Source: Candidatus Poribacteria bacterium
GTDB lineage: Bacteria > Poribacteria > DTPJ01 > WJIO01
Length of the DNA: 46,819 nt
Direction of reading: 5' to 3'
Assembly (NCBI GenBank): GCA_014730235.1
Contig: WJIO01000355.1
Location: forward strand, 1-46,819
Shown here: piece after piece, positions 1-43,742 of the stretch
How positions within the stretch are numbered: the first letter of the stretch is position 1
Layout of the letters: each line of letters starts with the position of its first letter
The notes under the pieces: generated by a model
The model's database searches: none
What the model was told of the DNA's origin: nothing
Seen by the model: the letters and a program-made list of their open reading frames with translations, nothing else
Made by a program: the position numbers and the translations under genes

Positions 1-47
1 AAGTTGAGAAAATTTTCAATTATAACCACACTGAACCCGGAAGAGCC
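1..47 (-). mobile_element. Partial ISL3-like MITE (copy A, cut by the window edge)
   Basis: One end of the 120-bp palindromic element found throughout the window. The arm ending ACTGAACCCGGAAGAGCC and the inner AAAATTTTCAATTATAACC segment match the left half of the other copies, read on the minus strand. The central hairpin would lie outside the window. The element end is 32 nt before the start codon of the DUF6785 gene. A weak -10-like TATAAC (21-26) lies inside the arm and points at that gene. Confidence 0.75.
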
Positions 48-1997: not shown

Positions 1998-2117
1998 GGT
2001 TCTTTCGGGTTTAGTGGGTTTATAGTTGAAAACCCTCTCAGCTTGTCATTCCTGCTTTCGCAGGAATGACAGCATAAAAAAGTTTCTTATCTTTACCCCA
2101 CTCAAGCTGGAAGAGCC
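1998..2117 (+). mobile_element. ISL3-like MITE (copy B, 120 bp)
   Basis: The outer arms start GGTTCTTTCGGGTTTAG and end CTCAAGCTGGAAGAGCC. The central hairpin has perfect 12-bp arms TGTCATTCCTGC (2044-2055) and GCAGGAATGACA (2060-2071) with a TTTC loop. Length is exactly 120 bp, as in copies D, E and F. There is no clear target duplication. Instead the right end abuts a 30-bp tail (2118-2147) shared with copy C. The element lies between the DUF6785 stop codon and the aldolase promoter. Confidence 0.85.
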
Positions 2118-12651: not shown

Positions 12652-12760
12652 GGTTCTTGCGGATTTAGTATGGTAATAATTTGAAAATTTTCTCAGCTTG
12701 TCATTCCTGCGAAAGCATAAAGAACTTTCTTATCTTTACCAAACTGAACCCGGAAGAGCC
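12652..12760 (+). mobile_element. ISL3-like MITE with internal deletion (copy C, 109 bp)
   Basis: The ends GGTTCTTGCGGATTTAGTAT and AAACTGAACCCGGAAGAGCC match the family. The right arm of the central hairpin is missing: the sequence jumps from GTCATTCCTGCGAAAGC straight to ATAAAG. This is a deletion of about 11 bp between two AGCA repeats. The right end abuts the shared 30-bp tail (12761-12790). The left end is 37 nt from the alpha-mannosidase start codon. Confidence 0.85.
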
Positions 12761-15460: not shown

Positions 15461-15662
15461 TATATATCCTCCAGGTATCAGGTCTTTTTAATTTTCCCTA
15501 ACTCCAACAATTTCCATTGGGCTAACCTGGCGCAGTGAAGTGAAGACATACAGCAGCGATGTTGGTTGTCTCAGATGAGAGATATTGTTGCTGTGAATCT
15601 GAATCGTTAGTATGTTGACCATGATATACCTATCTGTTTATGGATAATGATCTGATATATTT
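15461..15662. other. Intergenic leader region with an unverified 44-codon ORF
   Basis: Upstream of the DUF4838-like gene. A minus-strand ORF from 15622 to 15488 would encode MVNILTIQIHSNNISHLRQ... to ...MEIVGVREN, 44 residues, with only a weak ribosome binding site. The stretch around 15530-15600 looks richer in GC than its surroundings. It could be a remnant of a decayed gene; I would not call it a gene without homologues. Confidence 0.3.
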
Positions 15663-15790
15663 GGTTCTTCCGGGTTTAGTGGGGTTATAATTGAAAATCC
15701 TCTCAGCTTGTCATTCCTGCGAAAGCAGGAATGACAGCATAAAAAAGTTTCTTATCTTTACCACACTCAAGCCGGAAGAGCCATATATTT
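15655..15790 (+). mobile_element. Complete ISL3-like MITE with 8-bp target duplication (copy D)
   Basis: The element proper is 15663-15782 (120 bp), from GGTTCTTCCGGGTTTAGTGG to CACACTCAAGCCGGAAGAGC plus a final C. It is flanked by exact direct repeats ATATATTT at 15655-15662 and 15783-15790. The central hairpin is TGTCATTCCTGC / GCAGGAATGACA with a GAAA loop. It lies between two divergent genes, 202 bp and 222 bp from their starts. Confidence 0.9.
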
Positions 15791-17751: not shown

Positions 17752-17887
17752 ACTAAAATGGTTATTCCGGGTTTCGTGTGGTAATAATTGAAAGTGTTCT
17801 CAGCTTGTCATTCCTGCTTTCGCAGGAATGACAGCATAAAGAAGTTTCTTACCTTTACCACACGAAACCCGGAATAACTACTAAAAT
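17752..17887 (+). mobile_element. ISL3-like MITE with 8-bp target duplication and covarying arms (copy E)
   Basis: The element is 17760-17879 (120 bp), flanked by direct repeats ACTAAAAT at 17752-17759 and 17880-17887. Its arms pair perfectly for about 24 bp (GTTATTCCGGGTTTCGTG... with ...CACGAAACCCGGAATAAC). It differs from the other copies at two positions, and both changes are matched in the opposite arm. The central hairpin is intact. The left end is 31 nt from the start codon of the repeat-protein gene. Confidence 0.9.
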
Positions 17888-20475: not shown

Positions 20476-20570
20476 GGTTATTTTGACCTGAATGTAGAAA
20501 TGCAAAAAATCATCCAAGTAAGATAAGATGTCCTTACTATAAATATTACCACACAAAAACCGGAAAAACC
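20476..20570. repeat. Decayed ISL3-like MITE remnant
   Basis: The left end reads GGTTATTTTGACCTGAATGT and the right end ATTACCACACAAAAACCGGA, recognisable as the outer arms of the MITE family with many substitutions. The central hairpin is gone. A further half-end (ACACTAAATCTGGAAGAAAC) lies at about 20777-20796. Together these show that older rounds of insertion have decayed in this gap. Confidence 0.4.
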
Positions 20571-20664
20571 AATAATTTCCTATGAATTCTATTATATATA
20601 GACGCATAAAAAAAGGTTTTTGGTTAACAAAATTGTTTCTAGTAATCGTTAAATAATTAGTCTG

Positions 20665-20749
20665 ATATTTCTAAAATTAACTAAAACCAGATGTTGCAGT
20701 GCTTAAAGAGACACTAGCAAATGAAAATGCTACCAGGCTATCATTCCTG
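20665..20749 (+). repeat. 85-bp dispersed inverted repeat, copy 1
   Basis: This stretch, including CCAGATGTTGCAGTGCTTAA, matches the reverse complement of 43591-43675 with two mismatches that I can find. It ends in TCATTCCTG, the start of the common hairpin module, but the hairpin itself is broken here. The sequence encodes nothing obvious. Confidence 0.85.
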
Positions 20750-20805
20750 TATAATTTGTGTTTTTTCTTCATTAACACACTAAATCTGGAAGAAACAATT
20801 GCTTT

Positions 20806-23264: not shown

Positions 23265-23402
23265 ATAAAAACTGGCTCTTCCGGCTTGAGTGTGGTAATA
23301 ATTTGAAAATTTTCTCAGCTTGTCATTCCTGCTTTCGCAGGAATGACAGCATGAAGAAATCTCTTATCTTTACCACACTAAACCCGGAAGAACATAAAAA
23401 CT
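23265..23402 (+). mobile_element. ISL3-like MITE with 9-bp target duplication (copy F)
   Basis: The element is 23274-23393 (120 bp), from GGCTCTTCCGGCTTGAGTGT to CACTAAACCCGGAAGAAC. It is flanked by exact direct repeats ATAAAAACT at 23265-23273 and 23394-23402. The central hairpin (TGTCATTCCTGC / GCAGGAATGACA) is intact. It lies 31 nt before the alkaline phosphatase start codon and so forms the upstream leader of that gene. Confidence 0.92.
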
Positions 23403-42655: not shown

Positions 42656-42860
42656 GGTTCTTCCGGTTTGAGTATAGTAATAATTTGAAAATTTTTTCAG
42701 CTTGTCATTCCTGGGAAAGCAGAAATCCAATCTTTATGTAGATCTACTGGATTCCTGCTTCAAGCTTTTTGAAAAAGCTTGAGCAAAAAGGAATAAGAGT
42801 TTCGCAAGAATGAGAGCATAAGGAAATTCCTTATCTTTAATACACTGAACCCGGAAGAAC
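42656..42860 (+). mobile_element. ISL3-like MITE enlarged by nested palindromes (copy G, 205 bp)
   Basis: The ends GGTTCTTCCGGTTTGAGTAT and TACACTGAACCCGGAAGAAC fit the family. The centre is expanded by about 85 bp. It contains the GGAATCCAATCTTTATG...TACTGGATTCCTG module and a perfect 23-bp palindrome TCAAGCTTTTT-G-AAAAAGCTTGA (42760-42782). The left end faces the UroD-like gene, 50 nt from its start codon. Confidence 0.8.
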
Positions 42861-42881
42861 TAAACTTTATTTATTACTCCG

Positions 42882-43097: not shown

Positions 43098-43236
43098 GGT
43101 TGTTCCGGCTTCAGTGTGTTAAAGATAAGAAACTTCTATATGCTGTCATTCCAGCTTCAAGCTTTTCGAAAAGCTTGAAGCTGGAATGACAAGCTGAGAG
43201 AATTTTCAATTATAACCAACCTGAACCCGGGAGAAC
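43098..43236 (-). mobile_element. ISL3-like MITE with a perfect 48-bp central palindrome (copy H)
   Basis: The arms GGTTGTTCCGGCTTCAGTGT and ACCTGAACCCGGGAGAAC flank an element in the opposite orientation to copies B-G. The centre (43144-43191) is a palindrome without any loop, from TGTCATTCCAGC through GCTTTTC|GAAAAGC to GCTGGAATGACA. The flanks ATATATTT and TATATATG are similar but not an exact duplication. Confidence 0.85.
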
Positions 43237-43501
43237 TATATATGTTAATGAATTTAATTTTGTGTGGAAATAAATTATATTTTAATATTTTTATCATATG
43301 ACAAAGGAAGATATTATATAATCCAACCATTTCTTTCTTTATGCTTTTTCCAATCAATAAATCATCTAGTATTATCTTGAAAAATTATATATTAATAAAA
43401 CAACATATTGACCACGTCTTTATTTCATAAAAGTTAAGAACCTGAGAATTCTAAAAAATCTCTAAAACCAATGTTTATAAGAATTCAGCATGAAGAAACA
43501 G

Positions 43502-43618
43502 ATGAAAATGCTCAAAGAATATAGTTCTATGTCATTCCTGCGAAGGCAGGAATCCAGTCTTTATGTGGATCTACTGGATTCCTGCCTTCGCAGGAATGAC
43601 AGCCTGGTAGCATTTTCA
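43502..43618. repeat. Nested hairpin module (GTCATTCCTGC... type)
   Basis: Perfect 27-bp arms (43531-43557 and 43574-43600) surround a 16-nt centre. Each arm is itself a hairpin (TTCCTGC...GCAGGAA). A further inverted pair ATGAAAATGCT / AGCATTTTCAT lies outside (43502-43512 and 43608-43618). No MITE ends are present, so this module exists on its own. Confidence 0.75.
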
Positions 43619-43675
43619 TTTACTAGTGTCTCTTTAAGCACTGCAACATCTGGTTTTAGTTAATTTTAGAAATAT
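43591..43675 (-). repeat. 85-bp dispersed inverted repeat, copy 2
   Basis: The reverse complement of 20665-20749 with two mismatches (facing 20717 and 20740). It overlaps the right arm of the nested hairpin module and ends 67 bp before the glgA start codon. Confidence 0.85.
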
Positions 43676-43742
43676 GAGAGAACAAATTAAACTTTGTAAT
43701 GATTCATGTCGCGCATATTGGCAACACGAGGTAATTAAAAAT

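Follow-up and report, generated by a model that had tools for sequence, protein, structure and literature searches.

The window, a stretch of 46,819 nt analysed herein, represents the whole of contig C298 from the draft genome of a Candidatus Poribacteria bacterium (G000; 5.53 Mb, 451 contigs). Approximately 90 % of its first 45.2 kb is coding, and every ISL3-type copy that it harbours is intergenic (Table 1). The 20-bp end of these copies, TCTTCCGGGTTTAGTGT, is found 15 times within the window with three or fewer mismatches, against 0.08 expected from shuffles, and all of the copies listed in the original prediction are present. Overlooked at that stage were element X, a three-part hybrid and an old element devoid of a REP core.

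Table 1. Repeat elements and their parts within the window
Feature	Position	Strand	Details
Copy A	1-47	-	Single m1 arm, truncated by contig edge precisely at REP core
Copy B	1998-2117	+	No duplication (2/8); right flank is repeat Z, left flank is not
Copy C	12652-12760	+	Shortened core; no duplication (2/8); repeat Z on right flank only
Copy D, left target-site duplication	15655-15662	.	ATATATTT; identical to 15783-15790
Copy D, arm m1	15663-15709	+	47 bp; terminal repeat GGTTCTTCCGGGTTTAGTG
Copy D, central core	15710-15735	.	CGTC-type REP (class per PMC3733652), GTCATTCCTGCGAAAGCAGGAATGAC
Copy D, arm m2	15736-15782	+	47 bp; ending ..GCCGGAAGAGCC
Copy D, right target-site duplication	15783-15790	.	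ATATATTT
Copy E	17760-17879	+	8/8 duplication ACTAAAAT
Old ISL3-type element	20476-20569	.	No REP core
Three-part hybrid	20642-20795	+	Y end 20642-20661; X left arm 20662-20739; half REP core 20740-20749; ISL3-type arm m4 to ~20795
Copy F	23274-23394	+	8/8 duplication TAAAAACT; last element base changed
Copy G	42656-42861	+	111-bp compound core; 7/8 duplication with one-base shift; within repeat Z
Copy H	43098-43237	-	Palindrome TTCAAGCTTTTCGAAAAGCTTGAA replacing core loop; 7/8 duplication
Element X	43442-43678	-	Unrelated MITE; ends CTGAGAATTCTAAAA / CTCATATTTCTAAAA; 5-bp duplication AGAAC

Exact direct repeats had been claimed for copies D (15663-15782), E and F, and each of the three does carry a duplication matching at 8/8 positions, with near-perfect examples also at copies G and H. 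The proposed length of 8-9 bp holds only for the lower value, as the junction of copy F runs from ..GGAAGAACA into TAAAAACT, placing an 8-bp duplication beside an altered final base of the element. Copies B and C, which lack a duplication and border repeat Z (here AAAGTTTTCACGGACATAAATTTTA) on a single side, are probable recombinants. Repeat Z, with ends CCAAGCATAAAATTTA, hosts many ISL3-type MITEs, including copy G and those at L051:2959 and L069:2797, and it seems that it has been copied along with its inserted MITEs, such that composite nested elements spread too. Copy A is truncated, the window being a complete contig that begins at a core edge; a second contig edge of this kind lies at L047:13, and REP cores may contribute to fragmentation of the assembly.

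Across the draft genome, the 20-bp end returned 877 matches (three or fewer mismatches) and a control pattern none, confirming that the repeat family is real. Duplications were scored in a 1.02 Mb genome sample, fetched in stretches, across the 102 short end pairs for which both flanks were available, with expectations derived from shuffled partners. A perfect 8-bp duplication is found in 37 of the 102 (mean 0.8 expected) and a 7/8 duplication in a further 19 (mean 3.8), giving 56 with at least 7/8 positions compared to 4.6 expected; allowing a one-base slip raises the count to 69. Duplications of 9 bp or more remain at background level, with at most one match. The duplicated bases are 89 % A+T, compared to 60 % in the sample, and have the consensus AAAWWTTT, whilst 103 of 125 end pairs span 300 bp or less, constituting short elements without a transposase gene. 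The family combines paired inverted ends, present in hundreds of copies, with AT-rich target duplications of 8 bp. With regard to its distribution, none of these ends are present in G001, a genome of the same order, and five or fewer are seen in any other genome of the phylum; amplification therefore seems private to this lineage. Searches for these ends in viral contigs, and for copy D in plasmids, returned no match.

A search for the source of mobility identified three ISL3 (PF01610) transposase fragments within the same genome, each at a contig edge. One of these genes, on contig C342, ends inside an inverted repeat, GGTTCATCCGGTTAATGCGT, which forms its own right end and equals the MITE end at 14 of 20 positions. 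Similar ends flank ISL3 genes elsewhere in the phylum, those of G071 and G080 being alike, and full-length relatives of ~1.3 kb with ends GGTTCATCCG occur in Bacteroidetes MAGs (L227, L228). No intact autonomous element with exact MITE ends was found in the assembly, a draft that breaks at repeats, and none of 18 pairs of ends spaced 500-3000 bp apart has a convincing 8-bp duplication (the pairs being judged by duplication, not by ORF families). Accordingly, of what had been proposed, target duplications at other copies and transposase fragments and relatives with related ends were all recovered, and a full-length element with matching ends was not. An end at L036:471-490 (contig C391) was considered as belonging to the ISL3 gene located there, and rejected in favour of a better end at the stop codon, ~290 bp nearer. 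Separately, several contigs of G004 (L151-L153, L155) break 33-55 bp from an end, GGTTCTTCAGGGTTAAGTGTGGG; these breaks are probably a collapsed ISL3 element absent from the assembly, and no PF01610 gene was found in that genome.

The ISL3-like character of the ends is also borne out by a published MITE of Microcystis in which GGCTCTTCG ends accompany 8-nt repeats and ISL3 partners (PMC11448079). This element, 187 nt in Microcystis aeruginosa PCC 7806, has ends starting GGCTCTTC, 8-bp direct repeats, a stem-loop and a match to ISL3 elements, and contains no transposase. The evidence therefore supports the window repeats as ISL3-type MITEs of a non-autonomous nature, for which Microcystis provides a precedent. 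The Microcystis element differs in numbering ~33 copies, compared to several hundred ends here, and the portion of the report available describes neither a REP core nor arm exchange (PMC11448079).

The central hairpin, which had been regarded as part of the MITE, is present, yet is not proper to it. Its arrangement, GTCATTCCTGC-NNNN-GCAGGAATGAC, fits that of a CGTC-type REP, with a CGTC/TGTC tag, an 8-bp stem and a 4-bp loop, the tag and stem reading TGTC-ATTCCTGC-NNNN-GCAGGAAT in the cores. Comparison with published members of this class (PMC3733652) reveals the same TGTC tag, ATTCC(C/T)GC stem, 4-bp loop, inverted dimers, intergenic location and, in dimeric forms, CCA tail. An unpaired CCA tail is seen in cores of 70-76 bp, which are dimers (..GGAATCCA..); most cores here, unlike those published, are 26 bp in length and have the tag on both sides, the second tag, GAC, replacing the CCA tail. 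The 151 paired cores of the sample fall into size classes of 26, 46-48, 67-68, 70-76 and 109-115 bp, with the larger ones being REP dimers or containing other palindromes nested in the REP loop. In elements with m1 and m2 arms, the loop faces either way with respect to the arms in near-equal numbers (TTTC 15, GAAA 13). Loop inversion was set aside as proof of an invertase, which is unneeded, since a REP dimer holds both orientations and the loss of one unit yields either. CGTC-type REPs are found in many phyla, and have been published without a dedicated transposase (Di Nocera et al. 2013, PMC3733652); among 145 genomes, the pattern GTCATTCCYGCNNNNGCRGGAAT is present in 17, both within this phylum and beyond. 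Two candidate movers of the core were rejected: an IS110/Piv-type recombinase, as PF02371 has no match in the genome, and a REP-flanked tyrosine transposase (RAYT), as the sole Y1_Tnp gene lies on contig C236, which contains no core.

The same core is harboured by two unrelated families. Family X has ends CTGAKAWTTCTAAAA and 5-bp duplications, and its member in the window contains a 70-bp REP dimer at 43531-43600; family Y has ends GTAATCGTTAAAAAATG and duplications of 5-6 bp, e.g. AATATT and TTTGAT. A core lies within 110 bp inward of 212 of 257 ISL3-type ends, 22 of 26 X ends and 46 of 62 Y ends. The REP also occurs in non-hybrid X and Y elements flanked by duplications of their own. It is present within at least three unrelated MITE families that have core variants in common, the sizes 26, 46-48 and 70-76 bp occurring in ISL3-type elements as well as in X and/or Y. 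Several Y elements without a core (L040, L042, L067) have a common junction, TTTAGTTGTCATTTACCATC, with one variable base, at different loci, indicating that a coreless subfamily has spread and that the REP is dispensable for transposition. These observations also bear on whether the hairpin is retained as a working RNA or DNA element, e.g. a terminator or mRNA stabiliser, with shared cores reflecting selection. The intergenic position of all window copies and the strong single-strand fold of the ISL3-type MITE (-30.4 kcal/mol, z = -7.9) are in keeping with such a role; nevertheless, the window has no match to an Rfam family, the cores are highly variable in length and sequence, and coreless copies persist, making this explanation highly improbable.

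At the core, arms from different families come together. Both arms could be assigned to one of the three families in 138 of the 151 paired cores, comprising 97 ISL3-ISL3, 9 Y-Y and 6 X-X pairs, together with 17 ISL3-Y, 8 ISL3-X and a single X-Y combination. Thus, 26 of 138 classified elements are of mixed family, and one in two Y arms has a partner from another family, although the classifier wrongly places ~6 % of random positions in a family, chiefly ISL3, such that a small number of weak hybrids may be spurious. Six hybrids retain a remnant of the partner family beyond the outer end, mostly abutting it directly (e.g. L041:5390, L052:6426 and L066:19381, with L066:16444, one of the six, identified by eye), showing that one element had entered the other, with subsequent loss of the DNA separating the two REPs. 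Such a remnant is absent from the other 20. At three loci (L036:1899-1918, L054:12293 and, on the minus strand, L051 near 15775), an m1 arm is fused to an X left arm at an identical position (GTCATTTGCTAG), and the two of these that were checked have no duplication.

Hybrids of this kind could, in principle, be artefacts of short-read assembly joined at the core, with the link between REP and MITE then reflecting a single successful ISL3 family. The assembly is a draft of 451 contigs, the window begins exactly at a core edge, and some hybrid cores are 67-115 bp, such that a few long-core hybrids could be assembly joins. Against this, 16 of the 26 hybrids have cores of 26 bp, which is shorter than the usual assembly words, and several have partner remnants abutting the outer end. 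As non-hybrid X and Y elements with duplications of their own also contain REPs, and as the same layout recurs in other assemblies (G003 and G107, see below), we consider an origin by artefact to be quite improbable.

Beyond this genome, G003, from another family of the phylum, harbours the REP inside MITE P (ends GACCT..AGTTGGGACAT, with an 8-bp duplication, GCATTCCC, in L180), and also inside MITE Q (ends CGATGAT..), with a hybrid at L204:2699 consisting of the left part of P joined to the right part of Q. In G107, from a different phylum, many REP copies lie within repeat R, which has inverted ends GRCTGTCCYATAAT and no firmly placed duplication; the same layout is probable here, and less secure than in G003. 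Element R itself occurs in several copies within a further palindromic repeat, AAATCCCCCTT..AAGGGGGATTT, generating three nested layers (L234-L248). Other sampled genomes, e.g. G125, showed REP units and dimers only.

Taken together, these elements are, with good probability, non-autonomous ISL3-type MITEs that carry the REP as a passenger and exchange arms by recombination or slippage between cores. An ISL3 transposase, of the DDE type, would act in trans on the 20-bp ends, and the REP would be carried and multiplied by several MITE families. Where two elements are nested or adjacent, recombination or replication slippage between their cores would then remove the intervening DNA, and one arm of each element would remain. 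Alternatively, the REP could itself be mobile, with the arms as its target, having been inserted into the hairpin tips of MITEs by a RAYT-like or IS110/Piv-like enzyme or a phage integrase. Such mobility would suit the central position of the core in several unrelated families, both here and in G003, the further palindromes nested in the REP loop, the location of all CGTC-1 dimers of H. neapolitanus within palindromes (PMC3733652), and the use of dRS3 by a phage integrase in Neisseria (PMC3898611). It is nonetheless unlikely, given that the genome offers no PF02371 match and only the one Y1 gene without a flanking core, that Y and m3 elements are asymmetric about the core, and that the coreless Y junction is equally explained by deletion between GTCATT and GTAATT.

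Several components of the passenger model are already known: the ISL3 MITE kind, a MITE with a REP, CGTC-type REPs in palindromes, as in H. neapolitanus (PMC3733652), and dRS3 mosaics. QMITE2 of Coxiella burnetii likewise contains a REP, differing in that this is of the GTAG type, is a target of IS1111, is confined to one family and, in the part of the report available, is not described as an inter-family joint (PMC5896051). In Neisseria, the 20-bp inverted repeat of dRS3, ATTCCC(N8)GGGAAT, separates repeat modules, and recombination between copies has been suggested (PMC3898611). There, however, RS modules form arrays, whereas the elements described here are single MITEs bounded by inverted ends and by target duplications; their core stem reads ATTCCT, with T at position 6, and so departs from the dRS3 pattern. 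The cores therefore work similarly to neisserial mosaic elements (NIME), without being members. Unlike published CGTC-type REPs, those described here lie mid-element in no fewer than three MITE families that make target duplications; no instance of several arm-exchanging MITE families built around one shared CGTC REP was found in the open-access literature searched, and priority is not established by this.

We tentatively raise the possibility, with the layout seen in three genomes, a small number, that MITEs are a general vehicle for multiplying CGTC-type REPs across phyla, and that the REP is a universal joint by which new MITEs are built from old arms. If true, such a vehicle would account for a REP class without a transposase of its own, and the presence of REPs in several MITE families with swapped arms offers a testable answer, namely spread as a passenger coupled with a recombination joint. 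Such a joint would help to explain mosaic repeats, e.g. those of Neisseria, and would show how MITE families acquire new combinations of arms and delete the DNA in between.
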